DNA from: Bacteroidales bacterium
GTDB lineage: Bacteria > Bacteroidota > Bacteroidia > Bacteroidales > UBA7960
Direction: 5' to 3'
DNA: 35,414 nucleotides
NCBI GenBank assembly: GCA_003567205.1
Contig: PXAA01000114.1
Location: 1 to 35,414, forward strand
Shown here: positions 13,985 through 29,057 of the stretch, piece by piece
How the letters are laid out: each line of letters starts with the position of its first letter
Position numbering within the stretch: the first letter of the stretch is position 1
Made by a program: the position numbers and the translations under genes
Notes under the pieces: model-generated
The model's database searches: none
Told to the model about the DNA's origin: nothing
Seen by the model: the letters and a program-made list of their open reading frames with translations, nothing else

Positions 13985-14578
13985 ATGAACTGTCTGGAAT
14001 CTTTTAAAGAATACGATATCATCCTGGCTTCCCATTCTCCCCGCCGCAAAGCATTGATGGAAGGTGCCGGCATCCCTTTTCGCATACTGGTCAGGCCTAC
14101 CTCCGAGTTATTTCCTGAGAACATGCCGCCTGCCGGGGTGGTGGCGCATTTGTGCCGCGGGAAAGCCAGCTGCTTTGAGGATGAACTGAAAAAGCCAGGG
14201 GTGGTAGTGATTACAGCCGATACCATTGTGGTGCACCGCGATAAGATCATAAACAAACCGGCCGGTGCCGAAGAGGCCTTTGATATGTTGTCGGAATTGT
14301 CGGGAAGTACCCATGAGGTGTATACCGGGGTATGTATCCGGCGCCAGCAAGAAGAAAGAGTGTTTCATGACCATTCACTGGTAAGTTTCCGCACATTGAC
14401 ATATGATGAGATTTGGTATTATATCAATAATTATTCGCCCTTTGACAAGGCTGGCGCCTATGGTATCCAGGAATGGATCGGTTATATTGGTGTTGCGGAA
14501 ATCCGGGGTTCCTACCACAATGTGATGGGATTGCCGGTGCATAAGGTATATGAAACATTAAAGAAGATGTTGTGTTAA
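13985..14578 (+). CDS. Maf family nucleotide pyrophosphatase
   Basis: DIILASHSPRRKALMEGAGIPFRIL...ITADTIVVHRDKIINKPAGAEEAFDMLSELSGSTHEVYTGV...DKAGAYGIQEW. Confidence 0.94.
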   Translation: MNCLESFKEYDIILASHSPRRKALMEGAGIPFRILVRPTSELFPENMPPAGVVAHLCRGKASCFEDELKKPGVVVITADTIVVHRDKIINKPAGAEEAFDMLSELSGSTHEVYTGVCIRRQQEERVFHDHSLVSFRTLTYDEIWYYINNYSPFDKAGAYGIQEWIGYIGVAEIRGSYHNVMGLPVHKVYETLKKMLC

Positions 14579-17500
14579 GGGAGCTATGGATTTGGTGGTG
14601 GCGGTTCCTGCTGCTTTTGGGTCTGGTGATCATTGCTTCGCCGGAGGTTTGTGCACAGCATGTTGTCATTAACGAGGTGATGGCTTCAAATGCCACCACC
14701 ATTGCCGATGAGGACGGTGATTTTGAAGACTGGATTGAGCTATACAATGCGGGCGGGGATGCTGTTAATCTTTTAGGATACGGGCTTTCGGACGATTACG
14801 GGAACCCATATCGCTGGGTAATCCCCAATATCACCATCCAGCCGGGCGAGTTCCTGCTGATCTGGGCTTCCGGAAAAAACCGAAGTAACCCGGCAAATCC
14901 CATGCATACCAATTTCAGTATCAGTGCAGCCGGGGAGGAGGTGCTGATCACTCATCCCGACGGAACCCGCATCGACGAACTGGGCCCCATCCCCATTCCC
15001 ACAGATATTTCCTATGGACGGAAGCCCGATGGCGGGGGTAAGTGGTTTTTTTTCGCTGAACCCACACCTGGTGCACCAAATACCACTGATGGTTCCGAAG
15101 GCATCCTGGAAGCACCGGTTTTTTCAGCAACAGGCGGTTTTTACACCAGTGGACTGCAGGTGGTTATCAATCATCCCGATCCGGACGCAACCATTGTATA
15201 TACCAGGGATGGTTCAGAACCCTGTATCCAGAATCTGCCGGGAACATTTTACCAATATAAGAACGACTATCCTTTTAATCCTGGTGACCCTTTTGGTGAA
15301 TTCCTCGAACATACTTTCATATCTGAGATATATTCGGAAGAGATTGCGATTGAAGACCGCACACAGGATCCGGACAAGCTGACCCGTATGTCGGCGACCG
15401 TACACACGCCGGATTATATGCCTGACGATCCGGTGTATAAAGGTACGGTGATCAGGGCCCGCGCCTTCAAAGATGGTTTTTTGCCCAGCAATACCATAAG
15501 CCACAGTTATTTTATCACTCCGGAAGGCCACACACGTTTCAGTTTGCCTGTGATTGCTGTCAGTGTTCAGGAAAATTACCTGTTTGATTATCACAACGGG
15601 ATCTATACGCCGGGTGTGGATGCCGATCAGTGGCGTATTGATAACCCCGGCGAGGAGTTTGCCTGGCCATTTGCCGGCAACTTCCATCGCCGGGGGGTTG
15701 AGTGGGAGTATCCTGCTCATATTGAATTGTTTGATCAATCTGACAAAGAAAGGGTACTTGCCCAGGATATCGGCATTCGCATACACGGGGGTGCGACCCG
15801 CTCTTTTCCTATGAAATCGCTTCGCCTTTATGCCCGCAATCGTTACGGGAACTCCCATCTAAACCATGCATTTTTTGGCATGCAACCCCAGGCATACAAA
15901 CGTCTGATATTGCGAAATTCCGGAAATGATTTTCCGACCGATATCTGGCGGCCCGACTTTACCTCACGAACCATGTTCCGCGATGCTGCTATTCAACATA
16001 TTTTGCAGCACATGCGTTTCGATACCCAGGCCTATCGCCCGGCCATTTTGTTTCTCAACGGCGAATACTGGGGACTGCAGAATATCCGGGAACGTTATGA
16101 CAAACATTATCTGCATCGTAAATATGGTGTGGATGAAGAAAATATTGATATGCTCACCGGAAAGGATGAGGTGCAGGAGGGCGATAACCTGCACTACAAG
16201 GCCACCATCGAATACATCGAAACACATGGTGTGGAAAACGATGTGCACTATGCATGGGTGCTGACGCGCATTGATGAGCAGAACTTCATGGATTATCAGA
16301 TAGCAAACATCTTTGCTGATAATACCGATTGGCCGGGGAACAACATCGACTTCTGGCGACTACGCACCAGCGCATTTACCCCCGGCGTACCTTACGGGCA
16401 TGATGGCCGGTGGCGTTGGCTGCTTTTTGATATGGATTTTGGCTTTGGCCTTGTTAACCTTACAGGTGGTAACCAGACTTATAAACATAACACCCTGGAC
16501 TTTGCCACCACTGAAGCAGGATCAGAATGGCCAAATCCACCCTGGTCAACCTTCCTGCTCAGGAGTATGCTGAAAAACGAAACATTCCGGCACCAGTTTA
16601 TCAACCGCTTTGCTGACCAGTTAAATACTGCCTTTCTGCCCGAAAGGGCAAAGGGTGTTATACAGGAGATGCAAGAGGCCATTGCCCCTGAAATAGAGGA
16701 ACACTATAGGCGCTGGGGTTATCCTGAAGCTTATGAGCAGTGGCTTGGGCATGTGGAAGTAATGATTGAATTTGCAGAAAAACGGCCCTACCATCAAAGG
16801 CAACATATCCTTCAGCATTTTGACCTGGATGGTTTATACCGGTTGTCCCTCGATGTGTCTAACCAGCTGATGGGTCATATCCGGGTCAATACTGTGGATA
16901 TTGAATCAAATACACCCGGCGTGGCTGAATATCCTTATCCCTGGCTGGGCAGATATTTTGTGGGAGTCCCGGTCAAAGTAAGTGCCATCGCGGCCCCGGG
17001 ATTTGTGTTTTCACACTGGGAAGGTGCTTCCGGTTCAAGCGAACCAAACCTGTTACTTGATATAAACCAGGATACTCAACTGTCAGCTCACTTTATGAAA
17101 ATTGACACCCCGGTGCTGATCCATTACTGGCTATTTGATACAAGCATACCCAACGATACGCCTTTAATGACACTGGATGCTTTTTACGGTGCCCTGGATG
17201 GCGGGATGATTGAATACCACAGCGCACTCGAAGGCTATCCTTTTGATCCATCCCATCCCATGTGGCGCAAGGCTTCCATGGAAAGGCGTAACCAGCCGAC
17301 AGCCATCAATTATCGTCCGGAAGGCAATCATGGCATTCCCTATCATCAGGCCAATATGCGGGGTTTACAGATCAGGCAGCCCTTTGCCGATAATGGCAGG
17401 GAAAATACCATGATCCTGCATATGCCCACCACGGGTTTCACCGACATCATACTACGTTTTGCGGCCAGGGATGAAGGGGCTGCCGAAACCCTCCTTATCG

Positions 17501-18237
17501 ATTATCAGACAGGGCCTGAGGACTATGAATGGACAACGGCAGGCATTTCATGCTATCAGCTGTCCCTTGAACAGGCCTATCAGCTATATGAAATCGATTT
17601 CAGCCAAATTCCGGCAACAGAAAACAATCCACATTTTAAAGTCCGTATCCGTTTTGACGGTGACCATATGCATGCAGACGATGGCGAACGGGTAACTTTT
17701 AATAACATAAGCCTGGATGGGGTGTCTGTTGGTGCATTTATTGTAAATGCCAGGGCAGGTACGCATGGCAATATTTATCCTTCGGGAAGGATTGCATTGC
17801 ACCAGGGGGAAGACAAGGATTTTTTGATTGTCCCTTTCGAGAATCATTTTATAGAGGATCTTACCCTTGATGGAGCGAGCGTTATGGGTGACATAGAACC
17901 TGTAGGAGAAGGAGGTGCAAAATTCTCTATGACGAACATCAGTGACAACCATAAGCTTCATGCAAGCTTTTCCCTGAATGCTGATATCATTGATATACAT
18001 AAAGATCAGACCGTTTTGTATCCAAACCCCGCCAATGAGATGACCAGCATTGCAGTAATGGAAACCATCCAAAGCATACACATCATCAACCTTTCCGGCC
18101 AGGTTGTATATGAACACAATGCAGTCAATGCCTTAAGCCACGACATCAGTACGGGCACATTCCGGAACGGCATGTATATTGTGGTTATCCGGACGGGCAG
18201 CGGAACCGTATCGAAAAAGCTGCAGGTGATGCGATGA
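14572..18237 (+). CDS. Secreted CotH kinase family protein (paralog 1): signal peptide, lamin-tail domain, chitobiase-like domain, CotH, InlB-B-like, C-terminal jelly-roll-like, T9SS CTD
   Basis: GTG start overlapping the maf stop; VVINEVMASNATTIADEDGDFEDWIELYN (LTD), IVYTRDGSEP, RIHGGATRSFPMKSLRLYAR...RNSGNDF...DWPGNNIDFWR...WLLFDMDFGFG (CotH), C-term VLYPNPANEMTSIAV...GTFRNGMYIVVI. Confidence 0.9.
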   Translation: MLRELWIWWWRFLLLLGLVIIASPEVCAQHVVINEVMASNATTIADEDGDFEDWIELYNAGGDAVNLLGYGLSDDYGNPYRWVIPNITIQPGEFLLIWASGKNRSNPANPMHTNFSISAAGEEVLITHPDGTRIDELGPIPIPTDISYGRKPDGGGKWFFFAEPTPGAPNTTDGSEGILEAPVFSATGGFYTSGLQVVINHPDPDATIVYTRDGSEPCIQNLPGTFYQYKNDYPFNPGDPFGEFLEHTFISEIYSEEIAIEDRTQDPDKLTRMSATVHTPDYMPDDPVYKGTVIRARAFKDGFLPSNTISHSYFITPEGHTRFSLPVIAVSVQENYLFDYHNGIYTPGVDADQWRIDNPGEEFAWPFAGNFHRRGVEWEYPAHIELFDQSDKERVLAQDIGIRIHGGATRSFPMKSLRLYARNRYGNSHLNHAFFGMQPQAYKRLILRNSGNDFPTDIWRPDFTSRTMFRDAAIQHILQHMRFDTQAYRPAILFLNGEYWGLQNIRERYDKHYLHRKYGVDEENIDMLTGKDEVQEGDNLHYKATIEYIETHGVENDVHYAWVLTRIDEQNFMDYQIANIFADNTDWPGNNIDFWRLRTSAFTPGVPYGHDGRWRWLLFDMDFGFGLVNLTGGNQTYKHNTLDFATTEAGSEWPNPPWSTFLLRSMLKNETFRHQFINRFADQLNTAFLPERAKGVIQEMQEAIAPEIEEHYRRWGYPEAYEQWLGHVEVMIEFAEKRPYHQRQHILQHFDLDGLYRLSLDVSNQLMGHIRVNTVDIESNTPGVAEYPYPWLGRYFVGVPVKVSAIAAPGFVFSHWEGASGSSEPNLLLDINQDTQLSAHFMKIDTPVLIHYWLFDTSIPNDTPLMTLDAFYGALDGGMIEYHSALEGYPFDPSHPMWRKASMERRNQPTAINYRPEGNHGIPYHQANMRGLQIRQPFADNGRENTMILHMPTTGFTDIILRFAARDEGAAETLLIDYQTGPEDYEWTTAGISCYQLSLEQAYQLYEIDFSQIPATENNPHFKVRIRFDGDHMHADDGERVTFNNISLDGVSVGAFIVNARAGTHGNIYPSGRIALHQGEDKDFLIVPFENHFIEDLTLDGASVMGDIEPVGEGGAKFSMTNISDNHKLHASFSLNADIIDIHKDQTVLYPNPANEMTSIAVMETIQSIHIINLSGQVVYEHNAVNALSHDISTGTFRNGMYIVVIRTGSGTVSKKLQVMR

Positions 18238-18332
18238 AGCCAAGGAAGAAGGCAAGTATAAATTGTTTGTAAGTAATTAATAATAAGTAATTAGCATTGG
18301 TGGTTTTGTTGAATGTTTTTGGTTTGTGTGAA

Positions 18333-21300
18333 ATGACTTTTCGTGGTTGGCGGTTAATATTGTCTTTGGGTGTGATGTTGATTGTTTCGCATCAGGGCCA
18401 CGGGCAGCATATTGTTATCAATGAGGTGATGGCTTCCAATGCCAGTACCATTGTCGATGAAGACGGGGATTATGAAGATTGGATCGAGCTGTATAATTAT
18501 GGTAAAGAGGCCATTAACCTGGAGGGTTATGGCCTTTCGGATGATTATGGCGATTTGTTCAGGTGGTTTTTTCCGGAGGTGGTTATTGAGGCTGGTGAGT
18601 ATTTGCTGGTATGGGCTTCAGGAAAAAACCGCAGGCTGCCAGAACAGCCACTGCACACTGTTTTTTCCATCAGTTCGGCAGGGGAGGAGGTATTGCTTAC
18701 AGCACCGGATGGAACCATCATCGATGAATTGGAGCCTGTTAATATACCAACCGGTATATCTATTGGGCGCATACCGGGCGATTTAAGCAGTTGGTATTTT
18801 TTTGATGATCCTACGCCCGGGGCCGCCAATACCACGTACGCATGGGTGGGCATCCAGGATCCACCGGATTTTTCGCACCAGGGAGGCTTCTATGATTCAG
18901 ACTTTTTGCTTAAGCTGTCTGCGGATGAAGAAGCAAAGATCTATTATACCCTGGATGGCTCTGTGCCTGATTCGGCCAATGTGGAGGGAAGTGCTTTCAG
19001 TTATAAGGACCAGTATCCCCAGCATCCGGGGGATCCCTTTGGCCCGTTTCTTGAACGGGGTTTCCGGACCCACAGCTATGCAATCCCAATCCAAATCAAA
19101 GATCAGACGGGTAATCCTGATGGCATTCATCGCATCAATACCTCTTTTACCGTGACGCCCCTGTCGCCCCAGGGCGAAGTAACAGAAGGAATGGTCGTGC
19201 GGTCACGGGCTTACAGAGAGGATTATTTGCCGAGCAAGGTGACCACGCATACCTACCTGGTGGGTGAGGGCATCTGTGATCGCTTTGATTTGCCTGTGGT
19301 TTCCATTACCATTCCCGATACTTCGCTGTTTGATTATACGCGTGGCATTTATGTGGCAGGGGAAGCCTTTGATAATTGGAGGGAAGAAAATCCTGACAAG
19401 GAGATATGGCCTGCTGCCCCGGCTAATTGGGGGTATCGTAACATAGAGTGGGAACAGCAAATCCACCTGGAAATGTTTAATACAGATGGATCTTCGATGC
19501 TGCGTCAGAATTTGGGATTGCGCATACACGGAGGCTGGAGCCGTTCGAACCCAAAAAAATCCCTGAGGGTTTATGCCCGCAATATCTATGATACAGATAA
19601 CGAGATATATCATGTCTTTTTTCCCGGACAAGGCCGCACCCTTGATGGTGAGGACCTGGATGTTTTCAAGCGACTTATGTTACGTACAGGCGGCAATGGA
19701 AACCGTATCATCCGGGATGTCGTGGCACAGGACCTCATGATAAACACCCATGTGGGCATACAGCGGGCAGAGCCAGCTGTGCACTTTATCAACGGGGTGT
19801 ATTGGGGGCTGATGAACTTCCGTGACCGCCAGGATCGCTATCATATAGCTTATGAGTATGATATAGACCCGGATAATGTCATTATCATTGACTCCCCTTA
19901 CCGCATAACGGGAACCAACCAGCTTGAAGAAGGCGTACCCGAAGACCTGGAGTATTTTAACATGCTCTATCGTTTGATCACTCAAAACGATATGTCGGAT
20001 AATGAATTGTTCAAAATGGCAGCAGACCAATTAGATATGGATAGCTATATCGACTATTACCTGTCCTTTATTTACCTGGCAAACAGCGATTGGGGCGAGC
20101 GCGACCATGTGGGTGCCAAGCACTTCCGTTTCTGGAGGGTTCGCCAGAGATCCCAAAAGCCAATTCAGGACGGGAAATGGCGCATTATGCTATGGGACTT
20201 TGACAACGGATTTTCTGATTACAATTATGACCTGCTGACCGATGTATTTGATCCGGAAAACGAACCTTCGGCCATTATTCTGAACCTTGCTGAAAATGAA
20301 TGGTTCAAACACCGTTTCATTAACCGGCTGGCAGACCTGATGAACACCCGTTTTCTTCCTGCCCATGCATTGGATGTTCTGGAAAAGCGTTTGCAGGCGG
20401 TAAGCCATGAAGCGCCGATCGATCAGGGGCGCTGGAACCGGAATTCCATCCCCGATGCTGACCACATGCGGGATTTTTTACAGCAACGCCCATCCGTGCA
20501 AAGAAGAGAGACCATGGATGTTTTCGGGCTTCCCGACACCAGCCTTGTGACCCTGAAAACCAATCCTGTCCGTGGAAGCATCCGCATTAACACCATAAAA
20601 ATAAAAGACGGTTTGCCGGGCGTTGATAATCCGGGCAACTGGACTGGCACTTATTTTCATAAAGTTCCCATTGAAATAGAGGCCATTCCTGAACCGGGAA
20701 TGGTTTTCAGTCATTGGGAAGGTCTTCCCGAAAGAACCCCTGCCCGGACAACCATATATCTGGAGCATGACACAACGCTGACAGCGCATTTCTGGGACGG
20801 CATTGTTCATTACTGGCATTTCAATGACCTCCCGGACGATGATTTTGTGGAGAGCGTCAATGCAGACTACAGCCTTTTTCCGGAAGACGCCCTGATCACT
20901 TACCCGGGCAGTGGCCCGGGTTATATGGACAGGGTATCGGAGGGAACCGAGCTCAACGCACACATGGGCGCCGAAGCGGGTTATGGTTTGAGGGTGCGCA
21001 ATCCCTCCGACACCCGCTCATTACTGTTCCGGGTTCCGAGCACGGGCCACAATCATCTAAGCTTTTCCTATGCGGTGCACCGGACAAACAATGGCGCACA
21101 GAAACAATCCGTATATTATTCGCCCGATAACGGCGAAAGTTGGCAGAACATTGCCCCGCAGATAAACATTACCACGGAATATATGCGGCATGCCTATGAT
21201 CTGAGTAAATACCCGGAGGCCAACGACAATCCGGACCTGCTTATTCGTATATTGTTTACCGATGAAGCGGCGGCCAATACTTCGGGCAATAACCGATTCG

Positions 21301-22331
21301 ACAATGTGGTGCTGAAGGTGGCCCCTTTGCAGCTGGACGAAAACAATCCGCCCGCCGGCAAGATTCATGAAGCTTATACATATTCCCTGTCGGCCCGGTA
21401 TGGCGAAAGTCCCTACCGGTATAAGAGGGTGGGTGGCCACTTGCCGCAAGGCCTGGAGCTTTCGGAAGACGGTGCCATATCAGGCATTCCCATGCGCACA
21501 GGATCCTTTGTGTTTGAAGCAGAGGTGACCGATGCCAGGAAAGCCCATGCACGCCACACCTATGTGTTGAAAATATTCGGAGAGCAGCTTATCCATTACT
21601 GGCATTTTAACGATCTGGCCGAAACAACATTGAATTCGGTATTTGCCGATTTCAGTGCAACAGAGCAAAGGGCTTATATTTATTATCATGGCACAGGCGA
21701 TGGCTATATGGACGATGTGGAGGGTACTGAACTGAATGCCTGGTCGGATGCATCGGCTGGTACCGGCCTTCGCATAAGGAACCCTTCTGAAAACCGCGAA
21801 TTGCGGTTCAAAGTCCCTGCCGATGGGTTTGATTACCTGCAATTCTCTTTTGCAGTACATCGTACAAACAATGGCGCCCAATGGCAGCTTCTACAATATT
21901 CACCCGATAACGGGAAGAACTGGGCCACTGTGGGTGCCCAATACCGGATCACAACCGATTATAACCTAAAGAAGTTTAATCTATACAATTACTCCTATAT
22001 CACTGATAACCCGGATTTGTTGTTACGGATATTGTTCCTGGGCCCGGAAGCGGCTCACACTTCCGGAAACAACCGTTTCGACAATGTGGCCTTACGTGGC
22101 GTAATAGCGCCTGAATATCTTGAAAAGGACGAACTCTTTGTTTTTCCCAATCCGGTAACTGATGGGGTTTTATATTTTCTGGACGCCTATGATGTGCGCC
22201 TTTACGATGGTTTAGGATGGCTTGTTTTGTCTGAAACCGGGGTAAAAAAAATAAGGCTCCCGGAACTGGCTTCAGGGGTTTACTTTTTGATAACCGATGA
22301 GGGGAAATACGCAAAAATTATGGTTCCCTGA
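18333..22331 (+). CDS. Secreted CotH kinase family protein (paralog 2): LTD, chitobiase-like, CotH, InlB-B-like, two HYWHFN repeats flanking a putative-Ig domain, T9SS CTD
   Basis: ATG at 18333 (MTFRGWRLILSLGVMLIVSHQGHGQHIVINEVMASNASTIVDEDGDYEDWIELYN); RIHGGWSRSNPKKSLRVYAR, NSDWGERDHVGAKHFRFWR, WDFDNGFS; C-term LFVFPNPVTDGVLYF. Confidence 0.9.
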   Translation: MTFRGWRLILSLGVMLIVSHQGHGQHIVINEVMASNASTIVDEDGDYEDWIELYNYGKEAINLEGYGLSDDYGDLFRWFFPEVVIEAGEYLLVWASGKNRRLPEQPLHTVFSISSAGEEVLLTAPDGTIIDELEPVNIPTGISIGRIPGDLSSWYFFDDPTPGAANTTYAWVGIQDPPDFSHQGGFYDSDFLLKLSADEEAKIYYTLDGSVPDSANVEGSAFSYKDQYPQHPGDPFGPFLERGFRTHSYAIPIQIKDQTGNPDGIHRINTSFTVTPLSPQGEVTEGMVVRSRAYREDYLPSKVTTHTYLVGEGICDRFDLPVVSITIPDTSLFDYTRGIYVAGEAFDNWREENPDKEIWPAAPANWGYRNIEWEQQIHLEMFNTDGSSMLRQNLGLRIHGGWSRSNPKKSLRVYARNIYDTDNEIYHVFFPGQGRTLDGEDLDVFKRLMLRTGGNGNRIIRDVVAQDLMINTHVGIQRAEPAVHFINGVYWGLMNFRDRQDRYHIAYEYDIDPDNVIIIDSPYRITGTNQLEEGVPEDLEYFNMLYRLITQNDMSDNELFKMAADQLDMDSYIDYYLSFIYLANSDWGERDHVGAKHFRFWRVRQRSQKPIQDGKWRIMLWDFDNGFSDYNYDLLTDVFDPENEPSAIILNLAENEWFKHRFINRLADLMNTRFLPAHALDVLEKRLQAVSHEAPIDQGRWNRNSIPDADHMRDFLQQRPSVQRRETMDVFGLPDTSLVTLKTNPVRGSIRINTIKIKDGLPGVDNPGNWTGTYFHKVPIEIEAIPEPGMVFSHWEGLPERTPARTTIYLEHDTTLTAHFWDGIVHYWHFNDLPDDDFVESVNADYSLFPEDALITYPGSGPGYMDRVSEGTELNAHMGAEAGYGLRVRNPSDTRSLLFRVPSTGHNHLSFSYAVHRTNNGAQKQSVYYSPDNGESWQNIAPQINITTEYMRHAYDLSKYPEANDNPDLLIRILFTDEAAANTSGNNRFDNVVLKVAPLQLDENNPPAGKIHEAYTYSLSARYGESPYRYKRVGGHLPQGLELSEDGAISGIPMRTGSFVFEAEVTDARKAHARHTYVLKIFGEQLIHYWHFNDLAETTLNSVFADFSATEQRAYIYYHGTGDGYMDDVEGTELNAWSDASAGTGLRIRNPSENRELRFKVPADGFDYLQFSFAVHRTNNGAQWQLLQYSPDNGKNWATVGAQYRITTDYNLKKFNLYNYSYITDNPDLLLRILFLGPEAAHTSGNNRFDNVALRGVIAPEYLEKDELFVFPNPVTDGVLYFLDAYDVRLYDGLGWLVLSETGVKKIRLPELASGVYFLITDEGKYAKIMVP
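20802..21320 (+). repeat. HYWHFN protein repeat, copy 1 of paralog 2
   Basis: IVHYWHFNDLP...YPGSGPGYMDRVSEGTELNA...GYGLRVRNPSDTRSL...HRTNNGAQKQ...SGNNRFDNVVLKV; matches copy 2 at 21588-22103. Confidence 0.8.
21588..22103 (+). repeat. HYWHFN protein repeat, copy 2 of paralog 2
   Basis: LIHYWHFNDLA...YHGTGDGYMDDVEGTELNA...GTGLRIRNPSENREL...HRTNNGAQWQ...SGNNRFDNVALRGV. Confidence 0.8.
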
Positions 22332-22342
22332 CAAACTGCGGT

Positions 22343-25300
22343 TTACTTGAGCAGGATCATTTGCCTGCTTTCAGATCTGCCCGCGCTTTGCAGGCGGACG
22401 ATATAAACGCCCCCCGGCATTGAACTGCCGTCAAAGACCACCTGGTGTGTGCCCGGCGCACGGAAGCCGTCTGTCAGGTTGGCCACATGCATTCCATACA
22501 GGTTGAATACGTCTATTCTGACATGCCCCTCTTTTTGGGTGGTAAAGGGAATGGTTGTTCTTCCCCGGAATGGGTTTGGATGGTTCTGTTCCAGACCAAG
22601 GCCTGCAGGCTTGTTGTCTTCTGTCGCCACAACCTGGCTTGTCCCGTGCAATACTACATTGTCGAAACGGTTATTTCCTGAAGAGCCTGAGGCCTCTGCC
22701 CCGGTAAACAAGATTTTCAGCTTCAGGTCGGAATTGTTATTTGCCGCTTCGAAACCCGACAGGTCATAGTTGTAATAGGCAAAGCTTGTGCCAATATTAT
22801 ATGTGTAGGCCACCAGGGTCCAACTGATGCCACCATCGGTCGAATAATAGAGTTCCTGTTGCCTGGCCCCGTTGTTGGTCCTGTGCAGGGCAAATGAAAA
22901 TTCCAGGTTTTCATATCCCTTCGATGAAAGGGAAAGAATCAACTCCCTGGTGTTTGAGGGGTTTCTGACCCTGAGGCCGTAACCTGCCCCTGCGTTAAAC
23001 TTTGCATTAAGCAGTGTGCCGTCGGTACGGTCCATATATCCGTTGCCGGTACCGGGATAACTGATATGCGCTGTGTGATCTGTCATGGAGAAATCCGCTT
23101 CCACGTTGTGCAGTGTTCCTTCCGGCAGATCGTTAAAGTGCCAGTAATGAACCACGGCTTTGTGTTCAACATCCAGTACATATGTATGGACATCCTGTGC
23201 TCCTTCCTGGTCGCTTACCACGATGGTGAATTCAAATGTGCCGTAGTCTGTGGGTGTTCCTGACAGATGACCGTTGGATGACAGGTGCATGTCCGGCAGA
23301 ATGCTGCCTGATGTGATCTCATAGGTATATGGTGGTGTGCCGCCTGATGCAGTGAAGTAGTGGCCTGTATACGTTTCGTTCATGAAGGCCGTGGGCGGAT
23401 TGTTTTTATTGATGGTGAGATCAATGGCTGATCCGGCAAGCACCATATTGTCAAAGCGGTTGTTGCCGTCCGGTCCGGAAGCCTCCGGTCCGGTAAACAA
23501 AATTTTAAACTGTAGTTCAGGGTTGTCATTTACTTCGTCCAGGTGCCTGAGATCGAATGTGTATACCTGGAATTCCGGTTCGATGTCATAGGCATCTCCC
23601 ATCTGTATCCAGCTTTGGCCGGCATCGGACGAATAATAGAATTCCTGTTGCCTTGCCCCGTTGGGTGTTCTGTGGGCAGCAAAGGAGAAAACAAGGTCTT
23701 CGTAGCCAGCAGAAGAGGATTGGATAAGTAATTCCCGGGTGTCGGAGGGATTGCGCACCCTCAAACCATAACCTGCTGTGATGCCATGGTGAGCATTGAG
23801 CAGTGTTCCATCGGTGCGGTCCATATATCCATCGCCTGAGCCCGGATAGGTGATATGTGCAGCGCCTGATGCACTATAATCTGCTTCCACCAATTCAATG
23901 TGGCCATCCGGCAGGTTGTTGAAATGCCAGTAATGCAGGAGCGCGTCCTGAAAATAGGCTGTCACACTGGTTTCGCCTTCCATGGCAAAGTTTGTAACGG
24001 GCGATGCGGCCTCATCAATGCCATGCCAATGGCTGAAACGGTGCCCTGGATATGGCAGGGCCTCCAGCTTGATCATCATGTCTTTGAAGTATGTGCCTGT
24101 CCAGGGTTGGCTGTTTCCATTGATCTCCACTGTATTTACACGAACCCTGCCCTGGGATGGGTTTACAATGTTTATGTGCAGGCTGGTTTCCTCTCCCAGT
24201 TCGAATGCTTCGGCCAGATATTGCCGCATATAAGCGGTTCGCTGGGTAGCAAAATCCCGCATAACCTCTATTTCCGATTCCCAGTGGTCCAATCCGTCGG
24301 GCATGCGCCAGCGATGGATGTGTTCCGGCATTTCAGGCAGGTATAGTTCGTGCCAGGTCTCCAGCTGATCCAATACATGGGCTGTTTCAAAGGCCGTGTT
24401 CAGCAAGTCGGAAAAACGGGCAATAAAACGATTGCGAAAGTCTTGGTTCTTGATGAGTGCACGCAATATAAAAGTTGACCATGGCGGATTGGGCCAGTCG
24501 GGCCCGTTGGGCTCGAGCGCAAAGGCAAGGGTGTTGTGTGCGGGACCTTCATTCACCCCTGTTACATAGTCAAAATTAAGACCAAATCCGAAGTCCAGGT
24601 CAAACACCTGCCAGCGCCAACGTCCGTCGAGTCCGGGCGGCGCATCAGGAGTATAGGTGTCTGTATAGTAGCGCCAGTACTGTATGTTGTTGCCCGGCCA
24701 GTCGGTATTCATTACATAGATTTGGCCGATCTGGTAATTCATGAAGTTATCCACATCCATGCGGGTTTTTATTTCCGCGTAGTTGTCCGGATCACCAACA
24801 CCCGGACTTTCGAGGAAGCCCAGCATATCCCAGTAATGCTGAACCCCGTCGGGATTTCCCCTGTCTAGTTCTCCGTGCCTTTCAAGTATCGTGTAGTCCA
24901 TCTCATCGTCCAGACCATAATGGGTCTGGATATACCGGTTGTCGAGCCGGTCGCGGATATTGTGGATTCCCCAATACTCTCCGTTGATAAAAACAATGGC
25001 GGGTCGTGAATATTGCAGGTCAAGACCCATGTCTTTGAGCAATGATTGCATGAAGGCATCCCTGAAAATGGCATCACCCCAGTCGTTTCCACTGTTGCGC
25101 AATAGGAAGCGCTTATAGGCATCGATATCTTTATCGGGAAAGAGCGGATATTCCACCCAGGTTGTACCGTAGTCGGAGCGGGCGTACATGCGCAGTGACT
25201 TCCTGGGGCGGTTTCTGCTGGTACCCCCATGTATGCGGGTACCCATGTCTTGAGAAAAGGCCAGATTTCCGTTTTTTTCAAAAAACTCCAGGTGTACCAG

Positions 25301-26512
25301 GCGTTCCCATTCTTCACCCCGCTGGAAATAGTTGTTGTGGTTTCCATGTACGTATATGCCCGTATCGGCATCGAAAAAAGCACCGGCGTGTGCATTAATG
25401 GAAACAAGGGGCATAGAATAGCGCTGGCTTCCGGTTTCGTGCACAAGATAGCTATGGGTGGCCACTTCGCCGCCGTACCCATTTGGTAAAAATGCGCGTG
25501 CCCTGATGCTGTTGATTTTAAAGATCTCTCCCGCCGGTTCCTGCCAGTGTTCGTTATACACATGCCCCGGACCGATGTTATTGGTGGGGATCATGGATAT
25601 GGTATTGGGATCACCGCTGCGGTCAGTAATTGGGATCGGGGATGAATAGCCGGGGCTGCTCATATCAGGAATGCTGCCATCGGTGGTATAGCGGATGATG
25701 GCCGCAGGGATAACGTCTTCGATTTGGTATACTCCTGCCGGGTATACTGTTCCGTTAAAAGTAATGATGGCATCATTAATGGGTGCGCCATCCTGGTCGA
25801 TCACAACAAATGTTACCGCGAAGGTTTCCGGGCCTTCCGGATCATCATCCGGGTCAATAACGCCCCAAACGTCATAAAAAGTGGTGTTTCCGTAAACTGA
25901 AACCACCCTGTTGGGGTCACCGCCCCATTCACCGCCTCCCCAGCCTGCATTCAGGAAATATTTGTACGCATAATTACCGGGACCCAGTTGGAAGGAAATT
26001 TCGTAAATGTTGTCATCCTCATCCAGGGGCTCCAGGATCATAGCATCATTGGAGCCTGGTTCGGGCCAATGGGGGTCCGCCATGGTGCCGCTTATATATA
26101 CCGCATCGCCGGGCTGATAGGGAGAATTGGTCATGTCGACCTGAAAAGAAACCTGGAAAGATTTGGCCGACGATGACTCCGGCAACAATTCCCGGGTTTC
26201 CCCCTCTTTGCCTTGAGTCTGCAGGGTGATAACAATTTCAACGTCTTGGTCAATAATACTGACCTCTCCATGTACCGGATGATAACCAGTTTTTGCCACT
26301 GTATAGTTGTATATGCCGCTGTAGGCTGTTTCAAGCGTCAAATCGAACGATTCGGTATAAAACCCTCCCTTGTGCGAAAAAGCGGGTGCCTGAATCTGCA
26401 GACCGGTTTTATCCTGATGGCCTGCCAGGGCTTGGCGGGGATAAACCAAGGGCAATAATATGGCCAAGCATATTGCTGCGAAGAAACGGCTGTAAATGGT
26501 ATTGAAAGGCAT
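22343..26512 (-). CDS. Secreted CotH kinase family protein (paralog 3), no LTD; chitobiase-like domain split by a permuted domain insertion; CotH, InlB-B-like, two HYWHFN repeats, T9SS CTD
   Basis: 1389 aa; RIHGGTSRNRPRKSLRMYAR...RNSGNDWGDAIFRDAFMQ...NTDWPGNNIQYWR...WQVFDLDFGFG; C-term LEQNHPNPFRGRTTIPFTTQKEGHVRIDVFNLYG...GGVYIVRLQ. Confidence 0.9.
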   Translation of the reverse strand: MPFNTIYSRFFAAICLAILLPLVYPRQALAGHQDKTGLQIQAPAFSHKGGFYTESFDLTLETAYSGIYNYTVAKTGYHPVHGEVSIIDQDVEIVITLQTQGKEGETRELLPESSSAKSFQVSFQVDMTNSPYQPGDAVYISGTMADPHWPEPGSNDAMILEPLDEDDNIYEISFQLGPGNYAYKYFLNAGWGGGEWGGDPNRVVSVYGNTTFYDVWGVIDPDDDPEGPETFAVTFVVIDQDGAPINDAIITFNGTVYPAGVYQIEDVIPAAIIRYTTDGSIPDMSSPGYSSPIPITDRSGDPNTISMIPTNNIGPGHVYNEHWQEPAGEIFKINSIRARAFLPNGYGGEVATHSYLVHETGSQRYSMPLVSINAHAGAFFDADTGIYVHGNHNNYFQRGEEWERLVHLEFFEKNGNLAFSQDMGTRIHGGTSRNRPRKSLRMYARSDYGTTWVEYPLFPDKDIDAYKRFLLRNSGNDWGDAIFRDAFMQSLLKDMGLDLQYSRPAIVFINGEYWGIHNIRDRLDNRYIQTHYGLDDEMDYTILERHGELDRGNPDGVQHYWDMLGFLESPGVGDPDNYAEIKTRMDVDNFMNYQIGQIYVMNTDWPGNNIQYWRYYTDTYTPDAPPGLDGRWRWQVFDLDFGFGLNFDYVTGVNEGPAHNTLAFALEPNGPDWPNPPWSTFILRALIKNQDFRNRFIARFSDLLNTAFETAHVLDQLETWHELYLPEMPEHIHRWRMPDGLDHWESEIEVMRDFATQRTAYMRQYLAEAFELGEETSLHINIVNPSQGRVRVNTVEINGNSQPWTGTYFKDMMIKLEALPYPGHRFSHWHGIDEAASPVTNFAMEGETSVTAYFQDALLHYWHFNNLPDGHIELVEADYSASGAAHITYPGSGDGYMDRTDGTLLNAHHGITAGYGLRVRNPSDTRELLIQSSSAGYEDLVFSFAAHRTPNGARQQEFYYSSDAGQSWIQMGDAYDIEPEFQVYTFDLRHLDEVNDNPELQFKILFTGPEASGPDGNNRFDNMVLAGSAIDLTINKNNPPTAFMNETYTGHYFTASGGTPPYTYEITSGSILPDMHLSSNGHLSGTPTDYGTFEFTIVVSDQEGAQDVHTYVLDVEHKAVVHYWHFNDLPEGTLHNVEADFSMTDHTAHISYPGTGNGYMDRTDGTLLNAKFNAGAGYGLRVRNPSNTRELILSLSSKGYENLEFSFALHRTNNGARQQELYYSTDGGISWTLVAYTYNIGTSFAYYNYDLSGFEAANNNSDLKLKILFTGAEASGSSGNNRFDNVVLHGTSQVVATEDNKPAGLGLEQNHPNPFRGRTTIPFTTQKEGHVRIDVFNLYGMHVANLTDGFRAPGTHQVVFDGSSMPGGVYIVRLQSAGRSESRQMILLK
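22640..23155 (-). repeat. HYWHFN protein repeat, C-terminal copy of paralog 3 (approximate limits)
   Basis: VVHYWHFNDLPEG...GNGYMDRTDGTLLNA...GYGLRVRNPSNTREL...HRTNNGARQQ...SGNNRFDNVVLHG. Confidence 0.75.
23435..23942 (-). repeat. HYWHFN protein repeat, N-terminal copy of paralog 3 (approximate limits)
   Basis: LHYWHFNNLPDG...GDGYMDRTDGTLLNA...GYGLRVRNPSDTREL...HRTPNGARQQ...DGNNRFDNMVLAG. Confidence 0.75.
25703..26317 (-). other. 205-codon in-frame domain insertion (permuted carboxypeptidase-regulatory-like/FQVDM segment) inside the chitobiase-like domain of paralog 3
   Basis: Residues 66-270: GIYNYTVAKTGYHPVHGEV...FQVSFQVDMTNSPYQ...TFAVTFVVIDQDGAPINDAIITFNGTVYPAGVYQIEDVIPA; removal joins LTLETAYS to AIIRYTTDGSIP as in paralogs 1 and 2. 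Confidence 0.75.
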
Positions 26513-26529: not shown

Positions 26530-27204
26530 TTAATTTTCGTCAAAGAAAAGATTGACATTCTTCACCTGTGAAATCTTTTTCAGTTCCCGGATCATTTGAT
26601 TGCCTTTTTCTTCACTTGTAAGGAATACGTGGTAAGAGAATTCCATCAGTTCACTGCCCTCTTCCCCCAGGGCTTTGACATTGACAAGTTTATGGCGCCT
26701 GCAGTAAGATCTGATAACCTTTGATGTTTTTTCGCCCGTTACGTCATCCGTAACCATTAATATTTGCAGGAGGTATTCTCTTTTGATGGCCAAGCCGAAG
26801 CTGAACTGGCTGATAATCAAAAAAATAAAACTGATAAACAGGGTGCCAAAGATGGCTACGGAATACATTTTGACCCCGGCCGCCAATCCAATGGTCAGTG
26901 CAAAGAAAATGAACATGATGTCGGTGGCATCTTTTACTGCGGTTCGGAAGCGGATAATGGACATGGCCCCCACCATGCCAAAAGCACGTGCCAGGTTGTT
27001 CCCGATCACCATAATGACTATGGAGGTGATCATGGCCAGCATGATCATGGAAACCGAAAAAGAGGAGGAGTAATTCAAGCCCTTATATGTGTACCGGTAC
27101 AACAGGGAGATAATGATGCCGCAAAACAAGGCCACCAGCAGGTTGAATACTACATCCCTGAGGCTGATGGATAAGGTGAATATATCTGAAAAGTCACTGG
27201 CCAT
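26530..27204 (-). CDS. DUF4956 domain-containing membrane protein
   Basis: ARAFGMVGAMSIIRFRTAVKDATDIMFIFFALTIGLAAGVKMYSVAIFGTLFI; start may be 27204 (MASDFSD) or 27255 (overlapping the VTC gene). Confidence 0.88.
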   Translation of the reverse strand: MASDFSDIFTLSISLRDVVFNLLVALFCGIIISLLYRYTYKGLNYSSSFSVSMIMLAMITSIVIMVIGNNLARAFGMVGAMSIIRFRTAVKDATDIMFIFFALTIGLAAGVKMYSVAIFGTLFISFIFLIISQFSFGLAIKREYLLQILMVTDDVTGEKTSKVIRSYCRRHKLVNVKALGEEGSELMEFSYHVFLTSEEKGNQMIRELKKISQVKNVNLFFDEN

Positions 27205-27226
27205 GGAGTTGTTCTCAATAAATGAA

Positions 27227-27970
27227 TTAATAGTGTGCAAATGTTTTATTGACATCGAAGCCGATTACATATTTAGAGAGGGCTTCGTGCCTAAGCTTGA
27301 AATCATGCACGATATTTCTGGCCCAGCCCGGCATCTTGTCTTCAAAATATTTGATTTCCAGGATAAAATGACTTTTAAACAAAAAGCGCATGTCCTCTTC
27401 TGAATACAATTCGTTCAGGTTGGGATAATTCCGGCTGCGGATATTCTTATCAAAGGTAATCCGGGTACCGGCGTTTATTTTGCCGTGATATGCTTCCCTT
27501 TCGTAGGTTACAAGGGTGGTGGGGGTGAAAGACCGGAGTTTATAGTGGAAAAAGAAGCGTTTTGCATCATCCATGCATCGCTGGGGATTCCTGACGCTGG
27601 TAAAATCAAGGTACGTGTTTAATTCTCCGGTATCCAGGAGTTTTTTAAGGTTACTGTATGCCACCGGTGCCCTGTGTTTTTTGATCCTGTTGCCGAATTT
27701 TCGCTTGACCTCCAGGATGACAGGCTTGTCGTTGCCGTTTGTGTTGTACGCCCTGACCCGGAGCTTGCGTCTTTGCTGCAGGCCTTCTATCTTTTCATGA
27801 TAGTTGACAAGGTCGGGGCTGTCGAAATAAATGGATCGTACGCTGTATTGTGGTAAGCCGTTTCCATTGGTGGTGGCATACAGGTCTTCACGGACAAATC
27901 CCCGGATACGGCTTCTTAAGTCGTTCAGGAGATAATAGGGTACCAAATATTTCCGTTCATATCGTAACAT
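27227..27970 (-). CDS. VTC domain-containing (polyphosphate polymerase-like, TTM fold) protein
   Basis: MLRYERKYLVPYY...RSIYFDSPDLVNYHEKIEGLQQRRKLRVRAYN...VILEVKRK...YEREAY...RITFDKNIRSR...ILEIKYFEDKMPGWARNIVHDFKLRHEALSKYVIG. Start 27970 preferred over 27994. Confidence 0.9.
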   Translation of the reverse strand: MLRYERKYLVPYYLLNDLRSRIRGFVREDLYATTNGNGLPQYSVRSIYFDSPDLVNYHEKIEGLQQRRKLRVRAYNTNGNDKPVILEVKRKFGNRIKKHRAPVAYSNLKKLLDTGELNTYLDFTSVRNPQRCMDDAKRFFFHYKLRSFTPTTLVTYEREAYHGKINAGTRITFDKNIRSRNYPNLNELYSEEDMRFLFKSHFILEIKYFEDKMPGWARNIVHDFKLRHEALSKYVIGFDVNKTFAHY

Positions 27971-27977
27971 AAAACCA

Positions 27978-29057
27978 TCAATTCTGGTAAACAACCCTCG
28001 ACAGGCGGAGTATATATTCTTTCAGCGGCACAGTATCGGTAGTGATCCGGGCATCTACGATCATGTTTGGCAGAAGGCGCTCTGTACCCGGATTATCGGT
28101 TAACACCGAAACAAAAATTTTGGGCCGCCGGTTGATCAATTGCACCGTATTATCCATACCAACAACCTTGCCAATGATTTCCGCATGATGGTTGTCGATG
28201 CGGATGCGTACTTCCTGTCCTGCTTGTATATAATTTTTTTCGTGGATATCGACCGGTATAAATATAAGGACAGATGAAAGGTCTGCTATGCGTATCACTT
28301 CATTGGACATCGTTTCCCCAATGTCGTACTGACGGATAATATGGCCTGCAATGGGCGACAAAATATTCATTGCATCCTTGTGTTTCTCAAGTTGGCTGAT
28401 CTGGTCTTCGAGCGAAGCAATGCGCGAACGTACGACGCTCAATTCTTCTTCTTTTTCGCCGGCAAGTATCGCCCGGTAGTTTGATTGTGCGATCTCCAGG
28501 GCATATTGTTTTACCAGCAGATCATTCATGGACAATTCATATTCCTGCCGGGATACCAGATCTTGTTCATACAAATTTGCTATTCTCCCGGTCAGTTTCT
28601 CTTGTGTGGTCAACTCCTGGTGGGCCAAATCCACTTCATCAAGTGCCATCCGGATGGCTTCTGGTTTTTCGCCTGTCAGATAAACCTGCAGGAGGGCCTC
28701 CTGGTACAACATGTCTCCATGCATTTCCACCATTCGCATATCCAGGTCATGGGATATAACCCAGGCTATGGTATCCCCTTTGCGAATCATGGCATCCTGG
28801 ATCAAGGCGTCATTAAACAAAAAGGATACAATATCACCACGTTGGAATTCCAGGACCTTGTATTCGTTCAGACTGCCACTGAGGTGATTTTCCAATACGT
28901 TTACCAGGGTGCCATCGGAAGATTTATATAAGCCCCATTCCTGCAAAGGTTTCACCATTCCTTTGGCGCGGACGGAATAAGGCAACCGCACCACCATCAG
29001 TGAAATGACGGCAACGGCAAAAAGAGCCAATAACAATCCCCAGAATAATTTCTTCAT
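27978..29057 (-). CDS. HlyD-family membrane fusion / periplasmic adaptor protein
   Basis: N-terminal TM, coiled-coil region (ALEIAQSNYRAILAGEKEEELSVVRSRIASLEDQISQLEKHKDAMNILSPIAGHIIRQYDIGETMSNEVIRIADLSSVLIFIPVDIHEKNYIQAGQEVRIRID), lipoyl/barrel-sandwich half motif. Confidence 0.88.
   Translation of the reverse strand: MKKLFWGLLLALFAVAVISLMVVRLPYSVRAKGMVKPLQEWGLYKSSDGTLVNVLENHLSGSLNEYKVLEFQRGDIVSFLFNDALIQDAMIRKGDTIAWVISHDLDMRMVEMHGDMLYQEALLQVYLTGEKPEAIRMALDEVDLAHQELTTQEKLTGRIANLYEQDLVSRQEYELSMNDLLVKQYALEIAQSNYRAILAGEKEEELSVVRSRIASLEDQISQLEKHKDAMNILSPIAGHIIRQYDIGETMSNEVIRIADLSSVLIFIPVDIHEKNYIQAGQEVRIRIDNHHAEIIGKVVGMDNTVQLINRRPKIFVSVLTDNPGTERLLPNMIVDARITTDTVPLKEYILRLSRVVYQN

Follow-up and report, generated by a model that had tools for sequence, protein, structure and literature searches.

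Probable out-of-phase capture of one FQVDM-CPreg repeat unit within the chitobiase-like domain of a Bacteroidales CotH-like protein

Domain insertions of the A1-B-A2 type and nested insertions of the A1-B1-C-B2-A2 type have been documented (PMC13114784). Circularly permuted inserted domains occur in RNA polymerase according to a remark in PMC13114784, which cites Manriquez-Sandoval & Fried 2022, and RNA polymerase also carries recursively inserted, domain-swapped HABAS domains (PMC11515920). For CotH proteins, a neighbourhood of CotH, polyphosphate polymerase (VTC) and DUF4956 genes was described next to the Pel operons of Gram-positive bacteria (PMC7112168). The window analysed here, a whole stretch of 35,414 nucleotides of Bacteroidales DNA, resembles that neighbourhood in that its CotH-like genes adjoin DUF4956 and VTC genes, but it comes from Bacteroidales and its CotH-like proteins have type IX secretion tails. 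Directly upstream of CotH paralog 3, at 26530-29057 (minus strand), there are DUF4956, VTC (polyphosphate polymerase) and HlyD-like genes. A literature search found no published description of the combined chitobiase, carboxypeptidase-regulatory-like (CPreg) and FQVDM architecture that we describe for this paralog.

The window contains three CotH-like genes, and the translated open reading frame of paralog 3 agreed with its description in an earlier interpretation made without database searches (the sequence-only reading). Pfam profiles detected CotH, Fn3_assoc, CHB_HEX_C_1 and a type IX secretion sorting tail in paralog 3, and its assignment as a CotH kinase-like protein is predicted from the PF08757 match given below. 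The features are as follows.

14572..18237, plus strand: CotH-like paralog 1, with an uninterrupted chitobiase-like domain
18297..22331, plus strand: CotH-like paralog 2, with an uninterrupted chitobiase-like domain, convergent neighbour of paralog 3
22343..26512, minus strand: coding sequence of CotH-like paralog 3, 1389 aa, secreted, with a type IX secretion sorting tail
26423..26512, minus strand: putative N-terminal signal-peptide-like segment, about residues 1-30, as read from the sequence
26318..26392, minus strand: CHn, the N-terminal part of the chitobiase-like domain, residues 41-65 (QAPAFSHKGGFYTESFDLTLETAYS)
25703..26317, minus strand: inserted unit as delimited in the sequence-only reading, residues 66-270
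26222..26317, minus strand: CPc, the second half of the CPreg domain, residues 66-97
26165..26221, minus strand: linker 1, 19 aa, poorly conserved
25853..26164, minus strand: FQVDM domain, a CBM20/CBM48-like beta-sandwich, residues 117-220
25826..25852, minus strand: linker 2, Asp/Pro-rich, 9 aa
25703..25825, minus strand: CPn, the first half of the CPreg domain, residues 230-270
25433..25702, minus strand: CHc, the rest of the chitobiase-like/Fn3_assoc domain, residues 271-360
24227..25237, minus strand: CotH kinase-like domain, residues 426-762 (PF08757, E = 6.7e-53)
22355..22579, minus strand: type IX secretion sorting domain, residues 1312-1386 (PF18962)

Between the last two domains, residues ~855-1035 and 1120-1290 of paralog 3 (window 22640-23950, minus strand) form a duplicated domain of ~180 aa that starts with HYWHFNxLP. 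A putative Ig domain separates the two copies and the same layout is found in paralog 2. The duplicated domain is without a clear Pfam name and has multi-copy relatives elsewhere in the family (e.g. G011:C180 and G020:C40).

The chitobiase-like domain of paralog 3 is split by a unit in which the second half of a CPreg domain comes first, followed by the FQVDM domain and the first half of the CPreg domain. The split was examined with two profiles made from relatives, a host profile of 12 uninterrupted chitobiase domains and a CPreg profile of 15 contiguous CPreg repeats. Neither included an insert-bearing gene, and every deletion and every re-joining was scored around the coordinates listed for the inserted unit. 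The chitobiase-profile score of paralog 3 was 131 bits for the unmodified protein and 163 bits after deletion of residues 67-270. Joining the ends of the insert gave a CPreg-profile score of 97 bits, compared to 54 and 35 bits for the separate halves. The joined ends also matched Pfam CarboxypepD_reg (PF13620) with E = 9.5e-7 and 29.5 bits, against a curated cut-off of 32.3, whereas the unmodified paralog 3 protein gave no CarboxypepD_reg match at E <= 1 in Pfam. Array repeats of relatives clear the PF13620 cut-off: a three-copy protein scores 86.1 bits and a single repeat 39.1 bits. The host domain belongs to the chitobiase/beta-hexosaminidase C-terminal-like family (PF13290), for which the unmodified paralog 3 protein gave a partial match above the cut-off (profile positions 13-54 of 67). 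CHB_HEX_C_1 and Fn3_assoc cover the equivalent segment in paralogs 1 and 2, which are uninterrupted as had been claimed; in paralog 3 these Pfam matches start only at residue 263 or 265.

These scores bear out most of what the sequence-only reading had proposed for the domain: the order of the three parts of the insert, which is the same in orthologs, the restoration of a chitobiase domain by deletion and the formation of a CPreg repeat by joining the ends. Of the claimed in-frame 205-codon insertion the split was confirmed, but the length was corrected to 204 codons by both profiles (residues 67-270 with the host profile, 66-269 with the CPreg profile). The crossover point can shift by several residues, since the register around the hairpin is common to host and donor. 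In both families the cut falls at a Gly turn that precedes a Tyr-Thr strand, in agreement with the suggestion that the breakpoints are equivalent positions ahead of YT strands.

Units of FQVDM and CPreg, sometimes in tandem, are present in other proteins of the same genomes, where the CPreg domain is contiguous and complete or nearly so. The unpermuted repeat order foreseen in the sequence-only reading thus exists as FQVDM-CPreg arrays in relatives. The split and reversed CPreg domain was found only in the paralog 3 ortholog group, and the copies checked in other proteins were contiguous and mostly complete; the CPreg domain in this group is a circular permutation of its contiguous homologs. 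The unit lengths obtained with the host profile and the CPreg profile agreed in all 14 orthologs tested and ranged from 196 to 224 codons. Without its two linkers the unit measured 175-176 aa across the 14 orthologs. In the unpermuted array of protein L022 the FQVDM domains start 182 residues apart and the linkers are 1 and 5 residues long, which gives a core period of 176. The insert therefore corresponds to exactly one array period. Judged from its sequence, the inserted unit is a stretch of an FQVDM-CPreg array that begins halfway through one CPreg domain and ends halfway through the following one. In the insert-bearing proteins the two linkers mostly exceed those of the arrays in length (11-20 vs 3-5 aa for linker 1, 4-29 vs 0-6 aa for linker 2). 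No second copy of the insert was found in its own genome, where it occurs once in a 75% complete assembly, and no closest donor array could be named from the poorly resolved FQVDM tree, in which the inserted FQVDM clade is without a close sister. Three CotH-like proteins (L079, L080 and L081, from genomes G056, G047 and G053) have an uninterrupted chitobiase domain and carry an FQVDM domain at the N-terminus, ahead of an LTD-like segment.

The FQVDM domain resembles a CBM20/CBM48-like starch/glycogen-binding-type module by sequence and fold. Comparison with PDB profiles gave a match to the glucoamylase starch-binding domain (E = 3.7e-5), and a Foldseek comparison with CBM20 gave a TMt of 0.74; the interpretable Foldseek matches are those of the CBM20-like part. 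A related array protein passes the Pfam cut-offs for CBM_20 and AMPK1_CBM. A glycan-binding role of the domain on the secreted protein may reasonably be inferred from these sequence and model comparisons.

The same junctions were found in 14 orthologs from genera g1, g3, g4, g22 and g24 of one Bacteroidales family. Some of the insert-bearing orthologs come from named Bacteroidales assemblies, whose samples mostly bear the label CSSed; these we take from the isolate names to be soda-lake sediments. The locus is syntenic and convergent with paralog 2 in G004, G014, G011 and G016. Close relatives lacking the insert, a comparison that the sequence-only reading had pointed to, comprise homologs from genus g5, from G046 (g22) and from two genomes of Balneolia, all with an uninterrupted domain. 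The Balneolia proteins have a short N-terminus without an LTD domain, as in the insert clade, and an uninterrupted site, e.g. SVHDGLEIRYTTDG in L047; genus g5 has the LTD domain, which the insert clade lacks. These Balneolia homologs (L043 and L047) are close CotH-like proteins from another phylum that branch beside the insert clade, which suggests gene transfer between Balneolota and Bacteroidales.

Mapping the insert on a tree of the CotH region required two changes, which with paralog 1 as outgroup are one gain and one loss. A single origin of the insert is well supported. Furthermore, when compared with 54 other FQVDM domains, the inserted ones group as a single clade (support 89/61, present in 92% of bootstrap trees). 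The tree does not settle the branching order of Balneolia and genus g24, and this leaves some room for two gains or for gene transfer. A later loss in G016 and G012 is probable: both are nested inside the insert clade, their domain is uninterrupted and holds a small number of additional residues at the site, and keeping them outside the clade was borderline rejected (AU p = 0.044), where the G012 call takes two contigs as pieces of one gene. In L010 and L071 (G016) and L086 (G012) the unit is absent and the extra residues left at the site (AGASYSIDELEIRYT; ENNEDAKLEIRYT) are possibly deletion scars.

The dN/dS values were 0.03-0.30 in every segment with an estimate, the split halves included, which indicates purifying selection; CHn was unchanged in one pair, and the more distant pairs were close to synonymous saturation. 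The motifs of all four halves (CHn, CHc, CPn and CPc) are kept in the orthologs. In a 295-genome sample of the order, no match spanning both halves of the left junction was found outside the family. The arrangement is old, inherited and functionally constrained. Any implication of the sequence-only reading that the event is recent is not supported.

The best overall explanation, to which we assign a probability of about 0.75, is that one array unit was captured out of phase via a Gly-turn/Y-T hairpin common to both families and that the split domains then reassembled in a nested manner. In the ancestor of one Bacteroidales family, one FQVDM(CBM20-like)-CPreg repeat unit would have entered a secreted CotH-like protein, in frame, at the hairpin that links two strands of its N-terminal chitobiase-like domain. 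The donor unit would have been out of phase, with its CPreg domain cut at the Gly turn just before an xYxYT strand, a turn that would correspond to the Gly turn ahead of the IRYT strand of the host. Each profile reaches across a junction: that of CPreg covers part of CHn (hmm 34-72 at ORF 58-106), that of the chitobiase domain part of CPn (hmm 18-125 at 261-378). We infer a recombination route in which a crossover or template switch at one homeologous hairpin may have left the array and re-entered it at the same point one period later; integration of an excised one-unit circle could be an alternative route. Using one hairpin twice would yield exactly one period, permuted and in frame. The linkers on either side of the CBM20-like domain would have lengthened afterwards. 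Capture of a unit out of phase from a tandem array was already suggested from the DNA alone, and it is now backed by arrays in donor order, uninterrupted relatives, the unit length, the single-origin tree and purifying selection. Since the event is old, DNA traces of the crossover would be gone. The hexamer CTATAC, earlier put forward as a shared signature of the two junctions, was rejected as a recombination footprint: of the 14 orthologs, only 2 (this genome and one other) have it after both junctions, and it is a codon coincidence resulting from the Tyr-Thr codons.

An identical final product could arise from two successive recombinations, with an array gene fused upstream of the chitobiase C-terminal part and the N-terminal part restored upstream later. 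The N-terminal domains are labile in this family, as seen from the LTD domain that g5 has and the insert clade lacks and from the N-terminal FQVDM domains in G056, G047 and G053, but this route requires neither an exact one-period unit nor the same register point on both sides, and no one-junction intermediate was detected among 47 family genomes, nor, for the left junction, in 295 genomes of the order; we regard it as unlikely. Even less probable is that the insert was ancestral and that genus g5, Balneolia and other lineages lost it. Loss of the unit did probably occur in G016 and G012, but the domain is uninterrupted in the outgroup paralogs and in every member of g5 and Balneolia examined, so that several clean losses would be needed and parsimony disfavours this history. 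An assembly chimera, previously named as the main alternative, could be suspected in a metagenome-assembled genome that is a fragmented draft of 145 contigs and 75% complete. The identical architecture in 13 other genomes, independently named assemblies among them, excludes such an artefact.

With respect to folding, we think it most likely that CPn with CPc and CHn with CHc each reassemble as nested domains. The CPreg halves and the chitobiase halves would thus each form a discontinuous domain, and the reassembled surface protein would display one additional glycan-binding-like module next to its N-terminal domain. The longer linkers around the FQVDM domain fit an arrangement in which this domain is looped out while CPn meets CPc. 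An AlphaFold2 prediction of the insert alone gave pLDDT values of ~76-88 for both CPreg halves. For the full region, four of the five AlphaFold2 models had a pLDDT of 42-48; the single usable model was fairly confident for CHn and CPc but not for CHc, which was mostly at 41-65. The protein might instead consist of hybrid beta-sandwiches, with CHn and CPc forming one chimera, CPn and CHc a second, and the CBM20-like domain between them as beads on a string. Such hybrids would agree with the recognition of the pre-junction strand by the profiles of both families, with the start of the Pfam CHB_HEX_C_1 match at residue 263, within CPn, with the joint confidence of CHn and CPc in the full model, and with a pLDDT of CPc that is ~10 lower without the host flanks (insert alone vs full model). 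A chain of beads, however, needs no lengthening of the linkers around the CBM20-like domain, the CPreg halves remain fairly confident when the insert is predicted alone, and the motifs of all four halves are still conserved. We consider it possible, but doubtful, that two beta-sandwich families swapped halves at an interchangeable strand-turn-strand hairpin, in one step and with an out-of-phase array unit, to give two inherited hybrid sandwiches. Linker lengths, predictions and kept motifs together lean towards nested reassembly.

The origin of domain-in-domain insertions and of permutations is usually lost in deep time, while in this case the stages coexist among related genomes. Out-of-phase capture would account jointly for the permutation, the reading frame and the unit length, and it gives a clear structural prediction. 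It would show one way in which nature can build nested, circularly permuted domains. As in the nested insertions described earlier (PMC13114784), the chitobiase halves flank the CPreg halves, which in turn flank the CBM20-like domain. Unlike in those cases, the inserted piece is one out-of-phase repeat period and not a whole domain, and close relatives reveal the donor-type arrays, the uninterrupted host and also the point of permutation. The RNA polymerase inserts are similar in that the inserted domain is permuted with respect to standalone homologs and that recursive insertion and swapping are seen, but they concern other folds and proteins, lie deep in bacterial history and have a generating mechanism described as unclear, whereas the paralog 3 case falls within a single family. 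Permuted and nested insertions thus have precedents, and what is unusual here is the occurrence of the arrays, the uninterrupted host, the inserted state and a probable loss within one family and its near relatives.
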